Assembly: GCA_009772985.1 (NCBI GenBank)
Contig: WOUS01000011.1
Span: forward strand, 1-64,000
Reading direction: 5' to 3'
Length of the DNA: 64,000 bases
Source: Anaerolineaceae bacterium
GTDB lineage: Bacteria; Chloroflexota; Anaerolineae; Anaerolineales; Villigracilaceae
The first letter of the stretch is position 1. The number at the start of each line of letters is the position of its first letter. A model generated the notes under the pieces. That model did no database searches. It saw only the letters and a program-made list of their open reading frames with translations, and was not told the DNA's origin. The position numbers and the translations under genes are program-made. This document shows positions 11,580-23,009 of the stretch, piece after piece.

Positions 11580-13949
11580 ATGCGCGACTGGAATCTCGGC
11601 CCCGGCGACCCGCTCGCCCTCACCATAGCGGCGGACTTCCGCCTCTCGGCCCCCGACTACGCCAACGACCACATCTGGGAACTGGAGATCGGCGGCGGCG
11701 ACCCGCCTGCCCTGGCGCTCCACACCACCTACGGCCTGCGGGCGCGCCTCATGCGCCTCTTCCCGCGCTTCCTCGTCCGCGGCCAGACGCTGGGCGACCC
11801 GGCCGCCTTTGCCGTCCCGCCGCGCCTGCGCCGCTTCGCCCCCAACTTCCTCCTGCTCGACTTCTCGCCCCTCCCCGGCCTCGACGTGACCGCCGAATAC
11901 CGGGTCCCCGATTCGCACACCGTCGCCGGGCGGCTGACCATCTCCAACCGCGGCGACGACCCGCTCACCGTCCTGCTCGAACTGTGCGGGCAACTCGTCC
12001 CGCTTGAAGGGCAGAGCCTCGCCGCCATCTCGATGCAGTCGGCGAACGTGCTGGCCGGGCGCAGCGCGGACCTCGCGCCGGTCGTCTTCCTCACGGGCGG
12101 CCCGCAGGCCGGGCCGGGGCCGTATCCCGCCCTGACCCTCGACCTGGCGCTCGCCTCCGGCGGGTCGCGCACGCTGACGTGGGTGCAGGCCGCCCTCGCC
12201 GACCCGCAGGAATCCTTCGACCTGGCGCGTCATCTCGCCGCCCAGCCGTGGGACGCCGAGCGGACGAAGATAGAGATGACCAACGCCGCCCAGGCCGTCG
12301 AAATCCAGACCGGCGACCCCGACTGGGACGCGGCCTTCGCCCTCAGCCAGAAGACCGCCTTTGGGCTGTTCTTCGGCGCGAGCGCGCACCTGCCCCACCC
12401 GTCGTTCGTCCTCGCCCGCCAGCCGGACCACGGCTTTTCGCCGCGCGGCGACGGCAGCGATCACCCGTCCCTCTGGAGCGGGCAGCCGCCGCTCGAATCC
12501 TATTATCTCGCCAGCCTGCTGCCCGGCGCGCCGGACCTGGCCGCCGGCCTGGTGCGCAACTTCCTGGCCGCGCAGGAACCGGACGGCTCGGTGGACTTCC
12601 GCCCCGGGCTGGCGGGGCAGCGCGGACGCTGGCTGGCCGCGCCGCTCCTGACCGCGCTGGCCTGGCAGGTCTACCAGCAGACCGGCGACGCCTCGCTGTT
12701 GACGGAAGCGTTCCCGAAACTGCTGGCATTCCACCGCCAGTGGTTCACGCCGGCCCACGACCGCGACGGCGACGGCTTCCCGGAATGGGACCAGCCGCTC
12801 CAGGCCGGGCTGGACGACCACCCGGCCTTTACCGCCTGGCACACGTGGGATGCGGGCGCGGATATTTCCGCCGCCGAAAGCCCGGCGCTGGCCGCGCTGT
12901 TGAGCCGCGACGCGTTCCTGCTGGCAAAAGCCGCCACCCTGCGTGGGGATGACCGCCGGTGCGAGGACCTGGAACTGGAAGCCGGCGCGCTGCGCGTGGC
13001 CGTGGAGGATTGCTGGAATTCAGACGCCGCCCTCTACCGTTACCGCGACCGCAACACCCACGCCGCGCCCAACGGGAAGCAGATCGTCCGCCAGCGCGGG
13101 GAGGGCAAAAGCGAACTTGCCCAGGAGTTCGCCGGGCCTGCCCGCCTGCTGGTGCAAATCCGCTTCAAGGGTGCCACCATTCCCCGCCCGGAGATCGTTC
13201 TAAAAGGCAAGTCGGGACGCCGCGCGCACACCGAACGGCTGGAGCGCGCCGACTTCACCTGGGGCGCGGGCCTGGCCGCCGCCACGTGCCGCGCACCGTT
13301 CACTGCGCTGACCCGGCTCGAGGTCCGGGGTGTGGCGAAGGGCGACGCGGTTGTCGTGCGCGTGATGGATTTCAGCGTGGAAGACGTCAGCCTGTTCCTG
13401 CCGCTCTGGGCCGGGATCCCGACCGAAGCCCGCGCCCGGGCGCTGGTCAACCGCTCGCTGTTTGCCGCGGACCGGTTCGGGCGTCCGTTTGGGGTGCCGC
13501 TGTGCGCGGGCGGGGCGGCGGAGGCGGAGGATGTGGTGCAGGCCGTCCACCTGCCGTGGAACCATCTGATTGGCGAGGGCCTGCTGGCGTATGGATTGCG
13601 CACCGAGGCGGCGCAGTTGACCGCCCGGCTGATGTCGGCGGTGGTGGAGAACCTCAAGCGCCGGCGTTCGTTCGCCCGCGCCCATCACTCTGAGACGGGC
13701 GCCGGGCTGGGCGAGCGCAACCCGGTCCACGGTCTCGCTCCGCTTGGCCTGTTTCTGCAAACACTGGGGGTGCGCATCCGTTCGCCGCGCGAGGTGATTT
13801 TGTCCGGAAAGAACCCATTTCCGTGGCCGGTTACGGTAAAATATAGAGGCCTGACGGTGACCCGCCAGGCTGAGCAGACGACCGTGGTTTTTTCCGACGG
13901 CCAGACGCTCACCATGAACGACCCGACCGACGCGGTTGTATCCGTATAG
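11580..13949 (+). CDS. Six-hairpin (alpha/alpha)6 glycosidase, GH63/MGH1-like
   Basis: This soluble protein has 789 residues and no signal peptide. The N-terminal ~230 residues look like the beta-rich domain of glycogen-debranching and GH63-type enzymes. The rest shows the six-hairpin toroid pattern: SLWSGQPPLESYYLASLL, GRWLAAPLLTALAWQVYQQTGD, DRDGDGFPEWDQ and DDHPAFTAWHTWDAGADIS, with acidic loops expected to hold catalytic residues. Near the C-terminus, QAVHLPWNHLIGEGLLAYGL fits another helical hairpin. The family hydrolyses alpha-glucosides, mannosylglycerate or related sugars; the substrate here is not determinable. It stands alone in front of the cyclic-di-AMP receptor-like genes. Confidence 0.75.
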   Translation: MRDWNLGPGDPLALTIAADFRLSAPDYANDHIWELEIGGGDPPALALHTTYGLRARLMRLFPRFLVRGQTLGDPAAFAVPPRLRRFAPNFLLLDFSPLPGLDVTAEYRVPDSHTVAGRLTISNRGDDPLTVLLELCGQLVPLEGQSLAAISMQSANVLAGRSADLAPVVFLTGGPQAGPGPYPALTLDLALASGGSRTLTWVQAALADPQESFDLARHLAAQPWDAERTKIEMTNAAQAVEIQTGDPDWDAAFALSQKTAFGLFFGASAHLPHPSFVLARQPDHGFSPRGDGSDHPSLWSGQPPLESYYLASLLPGAPDLAAGLVRNFLAAQEPDGSVDFRPGLAGQRGRWLAAPLLTALAWQVYQQTGDASLLTEAFPKLLAFHRQWFTPAHDRDGDGFPEWDQPLQAGLDDHPAFTAWHTWDAGADISAAESPALAALLSRDAFLLAKAATLRGDDRRCEDLELEAGALRVAVEDCWNSDAALYRYRDRNTHAAPNGKQIVRQRGEGKSELAQEFAGPARLLVQIRFKGATIPRPEIVLKGKSGRRAHTERLERADFTWGAGLAAATCRAPFTALTRLEVRGVAKGDAVVVRVMDFSVEDVSLFLPLWAGIPTEARARALVNRSLFAADRFGRPFGVPLCAGGAAEAEDVVQAVHLPWNHLIGEGLLAYGLRTEAAQLTARLMSAVVENLKRRRSFARAHHSETGAGLGERNPVHGLAPLGLFLQTLGVRIRSPREVILSGKNPFPWPVTVKYRGLTVTRQAEQTTVVFSDGQTLTMNDPTDAVVSV

Positions 13950-13989
13950 TCCCGGTTCTTGCACGGGGCGCCGACTGACAGGAGGCCCG

Positions 13990-14328
13990 ATGGACCGTTC
14001 CCCGATTCGACATTTGATGCTGGCCATTGTCCAGGAACAGGACGTGGACCTGGCAGTGCGCGGCCTGGGCGTGCTGGAGGTGCCGGTCATCCATCTCTCC
14101 AGCACGGGCGGTTTCCTGGGGCGGCGCAACGCCACCCTGCTGGTGGGGCTGCCGGCGGGGAGCGAGGAACAGGTGCTGGTGGAATTGCAGAAGTCCTGCC
14201 GCCAGCGCGTGGAATACCTGGCCGTCCCGCTGGAGGGCGCGCCGCTGCCGCTCCCCACTCCCGTCCCGGTGACGGTGGGCGGGGCGACTGCTTTTACCAT
14301 TCCGGTGGAACGATTCGAGGAGTTTTAG
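13990..14328 (+). CDS. Cyclic-di-AMP receptor-like PII-fold protein (DarA/CdaR family), copy 1
   Basis: This cytoplasmic protein has 112 residues. The pattern RHLMLAIVQEQDVDLAVRGL, then HLSSTGGFLGRRNATLLVGL, and a C-terminal TAFTIPVERFEEF matches the PII-like DUF970 (YaaQ/DarA) family. That family binds cyclic-di-AMP as a trimer through the SSTGGFL-type loop. ATG 13990 follows ACAGGAGGCCCG. The next paralogue starts 2 nt after its stop. Known members are one-domain signal receptors whose partner is often unknown. Confidence 0.85.
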   Translation: MDRSPIRHLMLAIVQEQDVDLAVRGLGVLEVPVIHLSSTGGFLGRRNATLLVGLPAGSEEQVLVELQKSCRQRVEYLAVPLEGAPLPLPTPVPVTVGGATAFTIPVERFEEF

Positions 14329-14330
14329 CC

Positions 14331-14594
14331 ATGAAACTGATCATTGCCATCCTGAGTGACCATGATGCGGATCCCGTTACCCAGGCGCTGACCGCGGGCC
14401 GCTTCCGCGTGACGCGCACCGCCAGCACTGGCGGCCTGCTGCGCCGCGGCGCCACCACCCTGCTGATCGGGGTGGACGACAATCAGGTGGAGGCGGCCAT
14501 TGCCGTCATCCGCGAGACGTGCGCCCCGGCCGCGCAGGGCGAGAAGCGCGCCACGGTGTTCGTGGTGCCGGTGGAGAGGTTCGAGCAGGTTTAA
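14331..14594 (+). CDS. Cyclic-di-AMP receptor-like PII-fold protein, copy 2
   Basis: The 87-residue paralogue of the preceding gene shows the same order: KLIIAILSDHDADPVTQAL, TRTASTGGLLRRGATTLLIG, and FVVPVERFEQV. It lacks the inserted segment of copy 1 that precedes the final strand. ATG 14331 lies 2 nt after the upstream stop, so the two are surely co-transcribed; a strong terminator follows. Tandem copies may form hetero-oligomers or divide ligands between them, but that is inference. Confidence 0.85.
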   Translation: MKLIIAILSDHDADPVTQALTAGRFRVTRTASTGGLLRRGATTLLIGVDDNQVEAAIAVIRETCAPAAQGEKRATVFVVPVERFEQV

Positions 14595-14601
14595 GAAAAC
14601 A

Positions 14602-14646
14602 CCGCCTAAAACCCCAATCGTTTGGGATTTTAGGCGGATCGTTTTT
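14602..14646 (+). terminator. Terminator after the tandem receptor genes
   Basis: CCGCCTAAAAcCCCAA and TTGGGATTTTAGGCGG form a ~16-bp stem with a 4-nt loop, followed by ATCGTTTTT. Confidence 0.85.
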
Positions 14647-14712
14647 AAGCGGTTGTACGATCCGCTCAAACGCGTGTTGGGTGCCAAGATTACAAGTCAT
14701 GGAGGTTGTGAG

Positions 14713-15330
14713 ATGTCTTTTTACGATGCTATAAATAACCCAAGAAACTTCGCGATATCGATAAACAATAATCCCAAGAACGATTTCGGCGTTTTTGCTA
14801 AAGGGTATTCTTGGGCTGCTAGAAACCTTGCACAAATTTTGCTTAGCCAAAATTCTTTCGCAAATTATGATGCTTATCCTGTAGTGTTCCTTTATCGCCA
14901 TTCCTTTGAGCTTTATCTCAAGAATATTATTTATCGAGCTATCCCTTTGGCGGCTTTTAAGCGCTTCACTGATATCGACACTCGTTTATATAATCACCAT
15001 AAACTTGATATTCTGGCCGCAATTGCAGAACGTATTCTACAAAGATTATTCCCCGTAGATAATTCATTGAAAGAATTCATTAAGAAGTGTGTTCAAATAG
15101 CAGAAGAATATCAAATTATTGACCAAGATTCCTATTCGTATCGATATCCGATTGGTATCCAAGGAAATCCGTCCACTCCGAAAAATCAAATAGTAAATTT
15201 AGATTCGCTTTACCAAACGATGAATGAAATTCTCGATGGATTGGATGCAGTAGATTTCGGCATTAGTGCAGAAACTGACATGGCACAAGATGTTTACGAA
15301 ATGCTGAATTCCGAAGGCACAAATCCATAA
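14713..15330 (+). CDS. Orphan AT-rich gene, HEPN-like helical protein
   Basis: I do not recognise this 205-residue protein with confidence. It is soluble with no signal peptide. The segment VVFLYRHSFELYLKNIIYRA recalls helix 2 of HEPN-type helical bundles, where a basic/His-containing helix precedes a hydrophobic one. HHKLDILAAIAERI and SLYQTMNEILDGLDAVDF are further amphipathic helices. ATG 14713 follows GGAGG with 6-nt spacing. It is the first gene of the AT-rich island, and base composition indicates transfer. A stress or defence role is possible but unsupported. Confidence 0.6.
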   Translation: MSFYDAINNPRNFAISINNNPKNDFGVFAKGYSWAARNLAQILLSQNSFANYDAYPVVFLYRHSFELYLKNIIYRAIPLAAFKRFTDIDTRLYNHHKLDILAAIAERILQRLFPVDNSLKEFIKKCVQIAEEYQIIDQDSYSYRYPIGIQGNPSTPKNQIVNLDSLYQTMNEILDGLDAVDFGISAETDMAQDVYEMLNSEGTNP

Positions 15331-15335
15331 TTGGC

Positions 15336-15459
15336 GCCCAACACCGGCTCCACCTGACCGCCTTCGGCGCGGGGATGCGGCGGCCACTTGGTAGAAAAAG
15401 TGATTTTCAGACAGTCTTGTCTCGCCAAAATCGGCGGCAGGTGAGCCAAACCGTTCGGC
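15336..15459 (+). repeat. attC-like imperfect palindrome downstream of an AT-rich cassette gene
   Basis: Six bases after the preceding stop, GCCCAAC (15336-15342) begins a 124-nt imperfect palindrome ending with GTTCGGC (15453-15459). The inner arms GGCTCCACCTGACCGCC and GGCGGCAGGTGAGCC pair with two bulged bases, as in integron attC sites with extrahelical bases. The 5' box fits RYYYAAC; the 3' box departs from GTTRRRY at one base. The orientation after a gene and the length fit attC. No integrase is nearby. Confidence 0.5.
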
Positions 15460-15544
15460 ACGCCTCTTCACAACGGTAGGAAATATTTTTAGCGTGTTAA
15501 TTTATCCACATGATGCAAAATCCATTGTGAGAAAAGGATAGATT

Positions 15545-16270
15545 ATGAAAAGAAAAGGTTTTGTGAATTTTCTATATTCCTTCGGAGAATTTGCCGGATG
15601 GTTAATAGGAGCGGGATTGATGATTGCAGATATTATTAAAAATAGTGCTGATATAGGAATAATAAAAGGGGATGCTATTTTCTGGATAGGTCTTGCCTTA
15701 GTTCTCCTTGCTTGTATTTGGAGAGTTTTTAAGGCTGATAAAAAAGCGAGAGATGCCGAAGATAAACTTGAAAAATACAAAAGAGAAGTTGATGCAAATG
15801 CAAGTGGAGATATGTTTGCGATTAACCAAAAAGATAATAATCTTGCGATTGGAAACATGACCGGAAATGTTGTCTTGCCAGATGTAAAAAAAAAGGAAAA
15901 TCTAAATAAGTTAGACATCTTAACTCATAAACTTGTCAACGAGATTCTCTTATATAAGGTGTATTCTGACAAAGAAATATCAGCAAAGCAATTAGCAAAT
16001 GAGTTTTTTGATTTCTCCCAAAACAATAGGGTTGAGATGTCGCCAGTTTTGGAAAAACTTGTTTTTGATAAGATGTTTCGGGAAGTGAGAAATTTAATTA
16101 GCCAAATGGTTATCATTCATGGAATGATATGGGTTAGAAATGGAGAAATAGCGGCTAAAACTCCTTTTGAAAATCTTTCTCCTCTTCCAAAGATAGATGG
16201 AATTGAAGATGAATTACTGAGTCTTCGCGACAAGATACATGAAGAAATTTACAACACATCCCATCCCTAA
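15545..16270 (+). CDS. Orphan AT-rich gene, membrane-anchored protein with coiled coil
   Basis: This 241-residue protein is not recognised. The N-terminus has two hydrophobic segments (~residues 9-31 and 43-62). A charged coiled-coil stretch (KADKKARDAEDKLEKYKREV) follows, then a spacer NNLAIGNMTGNVVLP and a soluble helical C-terminal domain (~115-241). The spacer resembles the short beta-repeat linkers of some toxin and defence effectors, but that is weak. It lies in the AT-rich island between an attC-like site and a GC-rich spacer, and shares no operon with conserved genes. Confidence 0.6.
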   Translation: MKRKGFVNFLYSFGEFAGWLIGAGLMIADIIKNSADIGIIKGDAIFWIGLALVLLACIWRVFKADKKARDAEDKLEKYKREVDANASGDMFAINQKDNNLAIGNMTGNVVLPDVKKKENLNKLDILTHKLVNEILLYKVYSDKEISAKQLANEFFDFSQNNRVEMSPVLEKLVFDKMFREVRNLISQMVIIHGMIWVRNGEIAAKTPFENLSPLPKIDGIEDELLSLRDKIHEEIYNTSHP

Positions 16271-16503
16271 AAGCGTGCCAACAAAGCGTGCAGGTGGACA
16301 GAGGGGATCGCCCCGCTAAATTGAGTTTTTTTCTACACCCAAGCAACGTCCCGTTTTGATAGCGATTCCACGCCCGCCCAACTGTCTTTCCTACGCAAGG
16401 GGGCAACACAAACCGTCTATCTGCTACTGCCTAAATTCAACAACGAATTGGATGGGAGCACAATCCGTACCCCAGAAATTTAGAAACCAAGAGGAGATAA
16501 AAC
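16271..16503. other. Intergenic spacer with possible decayed attC-like segment
   Basis: The start, AGCGTGCCAACAAAGCGTGC, resembles the 5' arm of integron-type attC repeats, but I find no matching 3' arm. A small hairpin GGGGATCGCCCC lies at 16298-16309. The rest has no convincing gene; AGGAG before 16504 serves the next gene. Confidence 0.3.
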
Positions 16504-17208
16504 ATGAATATGATCAAACTCAATTGTCCGTCTTGCAATGGGAAACTTGAACTGCCGGATAATCTTGGTGTGGCGCATTGTATGTATTGCGGAACAAAAA
16601 TCCTTTTGCAACAATCCGATAGTGATCAAGAAAAAAAAGACCTTGCACGTTACATCGAGTTAAAAAAAGTTGCTATTGATGCCAATAACTTTGAGGAAGC
16701 TTTACAATACTGTAATTCCATTCTGGAAATTGACCCAAAGAACATTGAAGCGTGGATACATAAAGCCGTTTCGACTTTTTATCTCACGACTAATAAAAAA
16801 AATCGATATGATGAAGCAATAGAATACCTAAAAAAAGCGGCGCAGATAGCACCCGATAACAGCCGAATCGAGGATGTGCGTAACGAACTAACTTACAAAC
16901 AGGGTATGTGGCTTAGCAAATTGGGAGTAGATGAATTCAACCTTGGACAAAAACTATATGACAGTATCCAAGCTCGAAGTTTTATTGACATTGCCCGTGC
17001 AGAAAGAGATGCAAGAGCCATTAGCAGAGAGCACCATATTGCAGCGATGAATTATTTCATGGCAGCTTCTACCTGCATACCAGACGATCTGCAGATTCTC
17101 AGGAACATCGCTGACGGTGCAAAAGCGATTCACTGGATAGATTGGAGTACCCAAGTTCACGCTAAAATTGAGAGATATAATTCACTTCTTGCTCAAGGTA
17201 AAAATTAG
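16504..17208 (+). CDS. Zinc-ribbon and TPR-like helical repeat protein
   Basis: This protein has 234 residues and is cytoplasmic. An N-terminal zinc ribbon uses CPSCNGKLELP and CMYCGTKIL, two CxxC pairs. Residues ~45-130 form TPR-like helices: FEEALQYCNSILEIDPKNIEAW and YDEAIEYLKKAAQIAPDN carry the usual A/Y/P positions. The last ~100 residues are helical without a recognised motif. Such zinc-ribbon/TPR proteins are common accessory genes with scaffold roles, but no function can be assigned. ATG 16504 follows AGAGGAG at 8-nt spacing. Confidence 0.7.
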   Translation: MNMIKLNCPSCNGKLELPDNLGVAHCMYCGTKILLQQSDSDQEKKDLARYIELKKVAIDANNFEEALQYCNSILEIDPKNIEAWIHKAVSTFYLTTNKKNRYDEAIEYLKKAAQIAPDNSRIEDVRNELTYKQGMWLSKLGVDEFNLGQKLYDSIQARSFIDIARAERDARAISREHHIAAMNYFMAASTCIPDDLQILRNIADGAKAIHWIDWSTQVHAKIERYNSLLAQGKN

Positions 17209-17255
17209 AATCCTTGCTCGGCGAGGGACTCCGTCCCCGCCGAGATTTGACCGGA

Positions 17256-17285: not shown

Positions 17286-17289
17286 GTGG

Positions 17290-17315
17290 TAGGGGCGACG
17301 TATACGTCGCCCCTA
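17290..17315. repeat. Perfect 26-bp palindrome (GTAGGGGCGAC type)
   Basis: TAGGGGCGACGTA is followed immediately by its exact reverse complement. Palindromes beginning GTAGGGGCGAC are familiar as dispersed REP-like elements in several phyla. It lies between the zinc-ribbon/TPR gene and the duplicated panC end. Confidence 0.7.
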
Positions 17316-17320
17316 CGGAT

Positions 17321-17421
17321 TTACCCGATCACAAAATTATCGATCAGTCTTGTCTTCCCCACGAATACTGCCATCGAGAGCAGGGACTTGCCGGTCACCT
17401 GCGTCAGTTCCTCCAGCGTAT
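17321..17421 (-). pseudogene. Duplicated 3' end of panC (remnant)
   Basis: Bases 17330-17419 match panC 17777-17866 without any gap and with about 11 mismatches by my count. The fragment still encodes TGKSLLSMAVFVGKTRLIDNF and a stop at 17321-17323, but has no start or upstream domain. It lies on the far side of the YgiT-type gene, so the two copies form direct repeats around that gene. Confidence 0.85.
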
Positions 17422-17428
17422 TCTGTCT

Positions 17429-17474
17429 GCAAATGCAAACGGAGGCCTCCATAATCATGCAGGAGACCTCCGTT
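17429..17474 (-). terminator. Terminator of the YgiT-type gene
   Basis: On the minus strand ACGGAGGTCTCC and GGAGGCCTCCGT pair with one mismatch around an 11-nt loop, followed by TTGCATTTGC. Confidence 0.6.
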
Positions 17475-17504
17475 GGTCAATTCTTCTTGCGTTTTGACGA
17501 GTAT

Positions 17505-17771
17505 CTACCCAGGCCAGGCGTAGACTGGCACGACAATCTCGCGGCTGGCGTGGCGTCGTCCGCTCAGGTTTTCTTCGATGGTTTTGAGCACGTTGGCGGA
17601 ATAGTAGCGTGTACCGCATTGTGTACATACACCGGCCGGAACATTCTCCAGCAGGACATAATTGCCTTTGACCTTGCGGTGCATGGTCACGCGCTTTTCA
17701 ACAATTTCACCGCTGCAATATTCGCAAGTTTCTCCGTGCCAGAAATTTTCGGCCATAATCTCTCGCATCAT
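17505..17771 (-). CDS. YgiT/MqsA-type zinc-finger protein
   Basis: This protein has 88 residues. A four-cysteine zinc finger, CEYCSGEIVEKRVT and later GVCTQCGTRYYS, is followed by a helix (ANVLKTIEENL). That is the YgiT-type zinc finger found in MqsA-like antitoxins and in small stand-alone proteins. Its first ATG overlaps the panC stop as ATGA; a second ATG at 17756 is possible. No toxin partner (MqsR or DUF4258) is adjacent, and it lacks the DNA-binding HTH domain of full MqsA. It is bracketed by the direct repeat of the panC 3' end, so it appears to have been inserted there. Confidence 0.8.
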   Translation of the reverse strand: MMREIMAENFWHGETCEYCSGEIVEKRVTMHRKVKGNYVLLENVPAGVCTQCGTRYYSANVLKTIEENLSGRRHASREIVVPVYAWPG

Positions 17772-18601
17772 TCCAACACAAAATTATCGATTAGCCTTGT
17801 TTTCCCCACGAATACCGCCATCGAGAGCAGGGACTTGCCGGTCACTTTCTCCAACTCTTCCAGCGTGTCGTAGTCCGCGCAGGAGGCGTATTGCAGGCGC
17901 GCCAGCGGCTCGGCGCTGATGGTCCCGGTCAGGATGCGGCGTAAAGCCTCCGCGTCCCGCTCGCCTTGTTCATGGGCGGCTTTGGCGGCGGTCAACGCGC
18001 GGAAGAGCACGGTCGCGGCTTTGCGCTCCTCGGGGTTCAGGTACGTGTTCCGGCTGGACATGGCCAGTCCGTCCGCTTCGCGCACGGTCGGGCAGACGAC
18101 GATCTCGATGGGGAAGTTCAGGTCCTTTGTCATGCGCCGGATGACCGCCGCCTGCTGGGCGTCCTTCTGACCAAAGTAGGCTTTCTGCGGCTGAACAGCA
18201 TTGAATAACTTGGCGACGACGGTCGTCACGCCGCGGAAGTGGCCGGGGCGCTGCGCGCCCTCCAGCGGGGCGGTCAGCCCCTCGACCGTGATCCAGGTCT
18301 GGAACCCGGGCGGGTACATGACCTCGGGCGTGGGCGTCCAGACCAGGTCCGCGCCGGCGGCTTCGAGCAGGGCCAGGTCGCGCGGCAGGTCGCGGGGATA
18401 TTTTGCCAGGTCCTCGTTCGGTCCGAACTGGGCCGGGTTGACGAAGATGCTGACGATCACGCCGGCACATTCCCGGCGGGCGCGTTCGACCAGCGAGATG
18501 TGCCCGGCGTGGAGGAAGCCCATGGTGGGGACCAGGCCAACCGGTCCGGGGAGGAGCGGGCGGGCGGCGTTCAGTTCCTGGATGGAGGAGACGATTTTCA
18601 T
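17768..18601 (-). CDS. panC: Pantoate-beta-alanine ligase
   Basis: This enzyme joins pantoate and beta-alanine using ATP, the last step of pantothenate (coenzyme A precursor) synthesis. The 277-residue protein shows PTMGFLHAGH (nucleotide-binding HIGH-like motif), VSIFVNPAQFGPNEDL, AYFGQKDAQQ and the SSRNTYL motif. ATG 18601 gives the family N-terminus MKIVSSIQEL; the 12 residues upstream in frame are unlike the family. The stop overlaps the YgiT-type start by four bases. The last ~30 codons are duplicated at 17330-17419. No panB or panD is nearby. Confidence 0.97.
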   Translation of the reverse strand: MKIVSSIQELNAARPLLPGPVGLVPTMGFLHAGHISLVERARRECAGVIVSIFVNPAQFGPNEDLAKYPRDLPRDLALLEAAGADLVWTPTPEVMYPPGFQTWITVEGLTAPLEGAQRPGHFRGVTTVVAKLFNAVQPQKAYFGQKDAQQAAVIRRMTKDLNFPIEIVVCPTVREADGLAMSSRNTYLNPEERKAATVLFRALTAAKAAHEQGERDAEALRRILTGTISAEPLARLQYASCADYDTLEELEKVTGKSLLSMAVFVGKTRLIDNFVLE

Positions 18602-21197: not shown

Positions 21198-21581
21198 TTA
21201 CTTGTGCAATAATTTTTCGCGAACGAATTGACGAGTCTGTCTGGCCTGCTGGAAGGACCGTTCGGCAATCTCAATAGAAACATCCATGCCGGGATAACGC
21301 ACGGCCACCGAGTAACTTTCCAACTGGCGCATGTTGCCGCGCAAACCTTCGAAATCCCGATCCAGGGACACGCATAGATCGAGCAGGGGCATCAGGTTGT
21401 GGCGCGGTAAAAATTGTACGCCATGTTCTTGCAAAAAGGCTTTGAGGTACTTTTCGGCGCATTGCTGGCAATGGAAGCAAGCCGTATCGGGGATGGGAAA
21501 TTCACCCGCATGGAGCGCCAGGTCAGCCGTATAAAAGTCGTTCTCAGCCTTGGCAACCCACTCGCTAGTGAGTTCTTCCAT
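21198..21581 (-). CDS. HEPN-domain protein (toxin-side partner of MNT)
   Basis: This 127-residue all-helical protein has the HEPN pattern: EWVAKAENDFYTADLAL, ACFHCQQCAEKYLKAFLQEHG, LPRHNLMPLLDLC and SVAVRYPGM. In MNT-HEPN pairs the HEPN protein acts as an RNase or growth-arrest toxin that the nucleotidyltransferase controls by adenylylation. It overlaps the MNT gene by 17 nt on the same strand, as expected for a coupled pair. An exact Rx4-6H catalytic motif is not obvious to me, so activity is uncertain. Confidence 0.85.
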   Translation of the reverse strand: MEELTSEWVAKAENDFYTADLALHAGEFPIPDTACFHCQQCAEKYLKAFLQEHGVQFLPRHNLMPLLDLCVSLDRDFEGLRGNMRQLESYSVAVRYPGMDVSIEIAERSFQQARQTRQFVREKLLHK

Positions 21582-21933
21582 ACAACACTTTCCCTCTTTG
21601 GGTTACGTCGCGCAGGAACCAGTCCCCCAGTTTTTTTCGCCTTTCGAGTACGTCTCTTGAACGTACAATAACATCCACGCTGAAGGAGAGCAGCGGCAGG
21701 GATTCCATGATATCCAGCGCTGTTTCCATTTCCCCTTTGGGCGAGTCCATCACAATCAGCAGATCCACGTCACTCCAGCCGTCGGGCTTGCCATACGCGT
21801 GAGACCCGAAAAGGATGATCTCTTCCGGATTAAAGCGCTCCACAATGTGGGCTGCCATGGCTCGGATGGTGCGCATGGGAATACGCTTGCGCTGGTTCAC
21901 CGGGGGAACTTGAAAGGTTGTCTGTGTCGCCAT
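21565..21933 (-). CDS. Minimal nucleotidyltransferase (MNT antitoxin-like)
   Basis: This protein has 122 residues from ATG 21933. The polymerase-beta fold signature LFGSHAYGKPDGWSDVDLLIV holds the GS motif and the DxD catalytic pair, and a later acidic position (SVDVIV) completes the site. MNT proteins adenylylate or otherwise neutralise partner HEPN toxins. I chose 21933 over 21954 because a TATAAT lies 6 nt upstream and the earlier ATG overlaps the ychF stop. With the HEPN gene it forms a type VII-like toxin-antitoxin module. Confidence 0.85.
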   Translation of the reverse strand: MATQTTFQVPPVNQRKRIPMRTIRAMAAHIVERFNPEEIILFGSHAYGKPDGWSDVDLLIVMDSPKGEMETALDIMESLPLLSFSVDVIVRSRDVLERRKKLGDWFLRDVTQRGKVLYGRTH

Positions 21934-21939
21934 GGCTGC

Positions 21940-21945
21940 ATTATA
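21940..21945 (-). promoter_or_regulatory. -10 box of the MNT-HEPN pair (leaderless)
   Basis: TATAAT on the minus strand ends 6 nt before ATG 21933, placing transcription start at the start codon. Any -35 box lies in the end of ychF. Confidence 0.45.
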
Positions 21946-21950
21946 CGCCA

Positions 21951-23009
21951 TCACACATTGAACCGGATGTGGACGATGTCCCCATCCGTGACAATGTATT
22001 CCTTGCCTTCCAGCCGCAGTTTGCCTTTGGATTTGGCCTCCGCCATCCCGCCCAGTTCGAGCAGGTCCTGGCAGGCCACCACCTCGGCGCGGACGAATCC
22101 ATGCGCCAGGTCGGTGTGGATCTCGCCCGCCGCCTCGACCGCGGTGGCGCTGCGTTTCGTCGTCCAGGCGCGCACCTCGTCCTCGCCCACGGTGAAGAAC
22201 GACTGCTGGTCGAGCAGGTCGTAGGAGATCTTGATCATGCGGTTCAGCGAGAGTTCGGTGATGCCGTATTCCTGCATAAAGACGGACGCGTCGTCGGGCG
22301 GAAGTTGGGCGATTTCCATTTCCAGTTTGCCCTGCAGGGCGACGATGGGCGAGTCGGTCTGGACCTCAGGCCCGGTCTGCCCCTCGCCAAGATTCAGCAG
22401 CACGAGCAGTGGTTTGCGCGTCAGCAGGCCGAAGCCGGAGAGGTGTTTCTCTTCTTCGGCGGAAATTTCCACGCCCCGCAGGGGTTTCTCCGCCGAAAGG
22501 ATCTCGTGCAGGCGGGTGAATACCGCCGTCTGGCGTTCGTTGAGCGCCTTGTCGGTGCCGCCTTTTTTGCGCTCCTCTGCCAGCCGTTCCAGTTTGCGCT
22601 CGACGGTGATCAGGTCGTTCAGGAGCAGTTCCGCGTCCATCGAAATGATGTCACGCGCCGGGCCCACGCTCCCGGAGGGATGCGGGACGCTGTCGTCGGC
22701 GAAACAGCGGACAACGTGGATCAGCCCGTCCATCTGCGTCAACTGGTTCAGCAGCGGACCGGCGAACCCGCTTTTGGCCGCGCCCCCTTCCAGCCCGGCG
22801 ATGTCGGCGTAGGTCACCTTGGCGTAGATGGTCTTCTTCGGCTTGAACATGGCCGAGAGGCTGTCCACGCGCGGGTCGGGCACATCCACCACCGCGGTGT
22901 GGACCTCGATGCGCCCCGCCGAGGCGGTGGTCGGCGCGTGGCCGCGCGTCAGGGCGTTGAAGAGCGTGGTTTTGCCGGATTGGGGGAAGCCAATGATGCC
23001 TAGTTTCAT
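21951..23009 (-). CDS. ychF: YchF-type redox-regulated ATPase (OLA1 family)
   Basis: This universal Obg-related P-loop ATPase binds ribosomes and prefers ATP to GTP. The 352-residue protein has GFPQSGKTTLFNALT (P-loop), DVPDPRVDSLS, YADIAGLEGGAA (switch II region) and LLNLGEG. The last has the NxxE motif that replaces the GTP-specific NKxD and gives ATP preference. The C-terminal TGS-like domain ends in IVTDGDIVHIRFNV. It is followed directly by the MNT-HEPN pair and lies divergent from tRNA-Leu. Confidence 0.96.
   Translation of the reverse strand: MKLGIIGFPQSGKTTLFNALTRGHAPTTASAGRIEVHTAVVDVPDPRVDSLSAMFKPKKTIYAKVTYADIAGLEGGAAKSGFAGPLLNQLTQMDGLIHVVRCFADDSVPHPSGSVGPARDIISMDAELLLNDLITVERKLERLAEERKKGGTDKALNERQTAVFTRLHEILSAEKPLRGVEISAEEEKHLSGFGLLTRKPLLVLLNLGEGQTGPEVQTDSPIVALQGKLEMEIAQLPPDDASVFMQEYGITELSLNRMIKISYDLLDQQSFFTVGEDEVRAWTTKRSATAVEAAGEIHTDLAHGFVRAEVVACQDLLELGGMAEAKSKGKLRLEGKEYIVTDGDIVHIRFNV

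Follow-up and report, generated by a model that had tools for sequence, protein, structure and literature searches.

How does the 3′ end of panC, the gene for pantoate--beta-alanine ligase, come to stand a second time behind a small antitoxin gene? The question is raised by the draft genome (3.03 Mb in 26 contigs) of an Anaerolineaceae bacterium of the phylum Chloroflexota (assembly GCA_009772985.1), where the first 64,000 nucleotides of contig WOUS01000011.1, which we call the window, hold two copies of the panC end with ygiT, a gene for a YgiT-type zinc-finger antitoxin, between them. Brackets of the same kind recur around toxin–antitoxin (TA) pairs behind unrelated genes in related genomes, and this recurrence suggests that such pairs travel between species together with a piece of a neighbouring gene. 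We judge it fairly probable, at roughly 60%, that the window locus is the relic of a TA cassette that moved while attached to a host gene's 3′ end.

The panC end on both sides of ygiT

Read along the minus strand, the locus consists of panC (18601-17768), ygiT (17771-17505), a spacer of 76 bases (17429-17504) and a second panC end (17428-17321). The two ends form an ungapped direct repeat (17330-17419 and 17777-17866) with 79 of 90 bases identical (88%), so that the initial annotation's count of about 11 differences is exact, and this is the sole direct repeat spaced by less than 3 kb in the window. The gene itself is complete, with 277 amino acids from an ATG start at 18601, and matches PF02569 with 354.7 bits and TIGR00018 with 337.2 bits (cut-off 212.75). 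The copy nearer to the gene body (near copy, 17777-17866) lies within this intact gene and gives the C-terminus ...NFVLE*, whose final codons (LE*) are unlike the native ...NFVIG* of the same genus. The far copy, with the repeat core at 17330-17419, reads in frame as TLEELTQVTGKSLLSMAVFVGKTRLIDNFVIG and closes at its own TAA (17321-17323); 32 of its residues equal the PanC end of a genome of the same genus (G009), and the near copy differs at 4 of these. The profile matches and the TAA bear out the earlier description of a near copy that completes panC and a far copy that is a remnant with its own stop.

That description had also placed only the YgiT gene and its terminator between the copies. 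A single gene, ygiT, does lie there; the terminator is not upheld, because the imperfect hairpin in the spacer (approximately 17441-17475) has a long loop and lacks a T run; a terminator scan listed nothing at this position. The spacer had no match in the loci of relatives. Downstream of panC, one weak promoter-like match was found on the minus strand; a promoter spanning the gene end was weighed as a candidate and dropped.

The first ATG of ygiT (17505-17771, minus strand, 88 amino acids) overlaps the panC stop by four bases, ATGA (GAATGATG); since alignments with homologues set in at about residue 6-9, translation may in fact begin with the ATG at 17756. The product matches TIGR03831 with 49.5 bits (cut-off 20.2) and TIGR03830, the MqsA-type model with a helix-turn-helix (HTH) domain, with 26.4 bits, below the cut-off of 61.8 and over profile positions 1-66 of 127. 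By these matches it is predicted to be a YgiT-type zinc finger corresponding to the first half of the MqsA-type model, not a full-length MqsA-type protein with HTH. A search for a toxin partner in the window gave none (best E value 2.2); the closest ygiT homologues elsewhere sit behind a DUF4258 toxin gene (PF14076, 32.4 bits, cut-off 25). No match to the ygiT family was obtained on viral contigs, plasmids or phages.

PanC was present in 49 of the 61 genomes searched, and the second tail only in the source genome: none of the 48 other relatives with panC has one, and none was seen outside the window's own loci among 80 panC-search loci and the genome loci. Relatives lacking ygiT therefore do not share the duplication, and the two copies are both orthologous panC tails rather than sequences unrelated in phylogeny. 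Behind panC, relatives carry a conserved converging gene pair (window counterpart 13936-14594), which begins 19 bases after panC in one locus (L018) and after a gap of up to kilobases in others. Because this pair adjoins panC in some relatives, the AT-rich block at 14.6-17.25 kb is a separate insertion in the same gap. The initial annotation had placed an AT-rich island beside the cargo; the island is real (G+C 0.40 over 14600-17250 versus 0.62-0.67 around it), but it is situated past the far copy and not within the bracket.

The bracket behind other genes and around other cargos

Counting direct repeats at E <= 1e-8, we found close ygiT homologues bracketed behind other genes as well, as the initial annotation had proposed to look for. 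Eighteen such loci were tested, 14 from 152 genomes of the family and 4 more from 400 genomes of the order, with flanks that varied (1500/1500, 1300/900 or 900/600), and 9 of the 18 were bracketed by repeats of 49-118 bp. Besides the panC 3′ end in the window, the targets are enolase (eno) in G075 and G080, cofC in G032, and in G033 a VWA_CoxE gene (PF05762) whose 3′ end is repeated behind the ygiT of a DUF4258/YgiT pair with 98.4% identity over 63 bases. In G146 three copies are present, also around a DUF433/DUF5615 pair; in G109 the repeat brackets another small gene pair as well; and in G084 and G229 the repeats derive from gene starts, that in G084 belonging to a TIR-type protein as read by eye. 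The nine loci without a bracket (G061 twice, G171, G136, G139, G174, G056, G211 and G214) include some with short flanks, and a 16-nt repeat in G139 was left out of the count.

The VWA_CoxE gene end recurs as a target with different cargos. A protein search found the gene in 76 of the 152 family genomes, and extra matches to its tail lay near the gene in G026, G080, G139, G148, G174 and G033, to which G016 was added on direct reading of loci (20 read), making 7 genomes. This one gene end hosts at least four kinds of cargo: the DUF4258/YgiT pair, MNT/HEPN pairs (G026 and G139, with a remnant in G174), a pair of an 81-aa protein and a DUF6036-like protein (G080), and an open reading frame (ORF) of 566 aa without a Pfam match (G148). 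In G026, G080, G139 and G148 the cargo is co-oriented with the completed gene and begins 11-48 bases past its stop codon.

Among MNT/HEPN loci, 8 of 28 were bracketed. One of these repeats is the 3′ end of gatB (PF02637), and at two loci the copies are nearly or fully identical (98.3% over 59 bases and 100% over 42 bases). A ninth locus (L339) was dropped, since what is repeated is a tRNA-Leu gene's 3′ part, with the other copy at the locus end; there, a 54-nt copy (193-246, G109:C9) is identical to the tRNA-Leu 3′ part about 2 kb away, around the MNT locus, and is possibly a classical tRNA attachment site. The window has its own HEPN/MNT-like pair, named by eye, at 21198-21954, flanked by pepF and ychF on the same strand and without a bracketing repeat; its homologues lie directly behind panC in one relative's locus (L021).

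Pooled over both families, 17 of 46 loci were bracketed, compared with 49 of 1200 matched random controls (24/600 and 25/600, about 4%; Fisher p = 1.4e-11), and a stricter control gave 1 of 464. Many of the control matches come from two arrays, one CRISPR-like (clustered regularly interspaced short palindromic repeats) and one integron-like. The control stretches from G139 and G080 had been chosen for holding known cases, and this choice lifts the background. A repeat scan over 704 kb returned mainly domain repeats and these two kinds of array, in addition to the bracket of the window and, in G161, a triple repeat. A long CRISPR-like array lies in L310-L311 (G161:C1 28.4-40.5 kb, repeat GTTTCAATCCCCTCGATAGGGGC...); an array with GTTAGGC-like motifs (L300, G017:C1 approximately 382-389 kb) we take to be integron-like.

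Further brackets came to light in the same loci. The G161 triple repeat (L314 9952-12465, G161:C1:109952-112465) comprises three copies of a gene 3′ end. They enclose a gene pair with the caspase domain Peptidase_C14 as well as an ORF of 129 aa, an instance of the same habit in which the cargo is likely a defence one. In G139, a DUF3368/UPF0175 TA pair lies within a 68-bp, 93% repeat of a neighbouring gene start (L303 14340-15265, G139:C55:54340-55265), and in G080 two small genes lie within a 74-bp, 84% repeat that spans the beginning of a gene named by eye as metal-hydrolase-like, together with the region upstream of it (L308 11637-12662, G080:C20). The bracketing pattern is wider than the initial annotation held, extending over many cargos and many targets.

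Divergence and origin of the two copies

The differences between near and far copies carry the mark of selection on both. Nine coding gene-end pairs pooled gave 69.2 silent and 35.8 replacing differences and a ratio of replacing to silent change per site (pN/pS) of 0.153, next to 0.146 for native orthologous VWA_CoxE tails (52 pairs) and 0.168 for native panC tails (27 pairs) at similar identity. We left out of the pool the truncated remnant of G174 (0.28), a second G139 tail that would count the same near copy twice (0.07), the frameshifted remnant of G016, and the gene-start cases (L343, G084, G229 and two more); a gatB tail pair found later has 11 silent and 3 replacing differences. Since the silent-site excess stands at the level of orthologues, the copies were already diverged orthologues when they were joined. 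Simulated duplication with a selected near copy and a neutral far copy, under uniform mutation without transition bias, gave on average 2.24 replacing differences per silent one (minimum 1.58), whereas 0.52 was observed, a ratio reached in none of 500 runs; with selection on the far copy during 90% of the time, 3 of 100 runs reached it. Judged by these substitutions, the two copies evolved apart in separate lineages as functional genes and came together afterwards.

Two comparisons bear on which copy is native. In G026 the far VWA_CoxE tail has a response-regulator gene behind it; in G068, where the VWA_CoxE gene is uninterrupted, this regulator gene comes directly after it, 31 bases past its end. 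In genus g17, enolases without a cassette end in ALRV*, ALRM*, ALK* and the like, the near-copy ends ATK*/ATR* are seen only in the two cassette bearers (G075 and G080), and the far copy of G075 ends in ALMV*, resembling the natives. The G026 junction and the eno ends thus suggest that the far copy is native and the near end imported. Silent-site divergence (dS) of the cassette between the two eno bearers (0.37 and 0.55) is lower than that of the eno body (0.83).

For the window, we infer which way the transfer went, that it used homologous recombination on the gene end, and that the toxin was lost later. Incoming DNA from a related species would have carried a panC end followed by a DUF4258-toxin/YgiT-antitoxin pair and recombined with the resident panC end, so that the intact panC would now carry the cassette-side tail and the resident tail would have been displaced behind the cassette as a remnant. 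The second junction may have arisen by an illegitimate joint of linear DNA, or by a small circle integrating through one crossover. Subsequent loss of the toxin gene would leave the lone antitoxin with its four-base overlap with panC. Such pairs may persist between their repeats, since a cell that excised one through them would lose the antitoxin and die. An identical run as crossover core was tried and rejected: the longest run in panC is 29 bases (permutation p 0.036), but this length is matched by 1 of 14 native pairs with comparable identity, and the test gave p < 0.05 in 3 of 11 near/far pairs.

Several observations weigh against a cassette that arrived with an imported gene end. No donor with a panC–ygiT junction was found, nor another close ygiT behind panC in the loci read from the 152 family and 400 order genomes. 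Asked which copy is closer to relatives, distinct panC tails answer for the near copy on average (65 of 104, against 30 for the far copy and 9 ties), and near copies in general are closer to native tails than far copies; this is expected also under decay of the remnant, so that distance fails to settle which copy was imported. The window's panC tail is nearer to G035 of genus g26 than to G007 of its own genus (94 versus 88 of 108), yet 1 of 17 windows along the gene swings as much, and this sliding-window recombination test is suggestive only. The far eno copy of G080 bears the cassette-type ATR end, one gene-start pair (L343) has a pN/pS of 0.47, and some brackets stand at gene starts rather than ends. 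Between G026 and G139, the silent divergence of MNT/HEPN exceeds that of the VWA_CoxE gene, so that recent transfer is not supported there. Finally, the narrow range of repeat lengths (42-131 bp overall) is not predicted by a random illegitimate junction; it speaks for a step that sets the length or for an arm inherited with the cassette.

The strongest alternative is an insertion with long target duplication, in which about 100 bp of a single resident target are duplicated and the copies then drift. Such duplications, of the order of 100 bp, have been proposed for restriction-modification (RM) genes (Nobusato et al. 2000 and Furuta et al. 2010, cited by PMC3874152 and PMC1643837), and as far as the accessible portions of the two citing papers go, the likeness lies in a small addiction-type module without a transposase between direct repeats of about 100 bp from the target. 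The nearly or fully identical brackets of G033 and the two MNT loci fit this origin, as do the gene-start brackets and a breakage step that would set the narrow length range. Unlike RM, the cargo here is TA (YgiT finger, DUF4258, NTP_transf_2, HEPN), the copies are diverged orthologues, and gene ends are mostly left intact. With silent change at the level of working orthologues and no simulated run reaching the observed ratio, at least about 90% of the divergence would have to predate the joining; simple duplication with decay is disfavoured for the gene-end cases, within the limits of the simulation, and we regard this origin as unlikely.

Elements that integrate into a gene and restore its 3′ end are familiar from e14 and phage 21 in icd and from elements in tRNA genes, and a site-specific element of the phage, satellite or integrative and conjugative type, with its integrase and remaining parts lost or acting in trans, could have used the target 3′ end as its attachment site. 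The end state would be alike, with the gene end apparently swapped for a diverged working version and the native remnant on the far side; the VWA_CoxE end was used repeatedly (7 of 76 genomes with the gene), and several tails stand in series in G139, G146, G161 and G174. Against this, no integrase or other recombinase was seen among the bracketed cargo proteins scanned, the targets are unrelated rather than fixed (panC, eno, VWA_CoxE, cofC, gatB and gene starts), and unrelated cargos of one or two small genes show the same habit, which makes such an element rather improbable. Of the initial annotation's element that enters a conserved gene end and restores it, what stands is a module that entered, a whole gene and a remnant left behind; integration of the phage or integrative type does not, also in view of the brackets at gene starts. 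Coincidence or artefact (an unrelated tandem duplication of the panC end, dispersed repeats or a chimeric assembly) has the draft state of the source genome in its favour and is very improbable, given that the bracket recurs in many separately assembled genomes against 4% of controls and that copies 12% different with a gene between them do not fit overlap-driven misassembly.

Returning to a cassette that moves with a host gene end, a broader picture may tentatively be drawn: a recombinase-free lifestyle in which TA modules would carry 40-130 bp from the end or start of a host gene as homology arms, enter related genomes harmlessly and be kept because their loss is lethal, with many TA families of Anaerolineales taking part and VWA_CoxE-like gene ends serving as exchange docks. 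For the movement of solitary chromosomal TA pairs without a transposase, the scar is visible here, repeated over many genes and cargos, and its age order can be read from silent substitutions. The corresponding genome signature, a TA pair followed by a diverged tail of the upstream gene, is countable in any lineage and open to experiment.

Published parallels and neighbouring features

Judged from the portions of the cited papers that were accessible, two further systems resemble these loci. The effector-immunity arrays of the Vibrio type VI secretion system, formed by homology-facilitated illegitimate recombination (PMC5361080), would share a homology anchor on a conserved upstream gene, non-homologous cargo, a displaced remnant downstream and the formation of arrays; they differ in that the anchor here consists of the terminal 50-120 bp of unrelated housekeeping genes, with a host gene tail as the remnant instead of an immunity gene. 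A mycoplasma TA pair is likewise flanked by direct repeats, read as recombination scars (PMC8562856), but it is one system, and in the accessible part of that text the repeats are not traced to gene ends. The open-access literature yielded nothing linking TA systems with homology-facilitated illegitimate recombination, nor DUF4258 with YgiT, and the wider open-access literature, judged by titles and the starts of abstracts, nothing of this kind.

Two features lie next to the far copy in the window. The AT-rich block (14600-17250) carries plus-strand ORFs, including one for a TPR protein with a zinc-ribbon-like start. Between this block and the far copy, positions 17289-17316 form a perfect palindrome, GTAGGGGCGACGTATACGTCGCCCCTAC, of which more copies are present on other contigs of the source genome.
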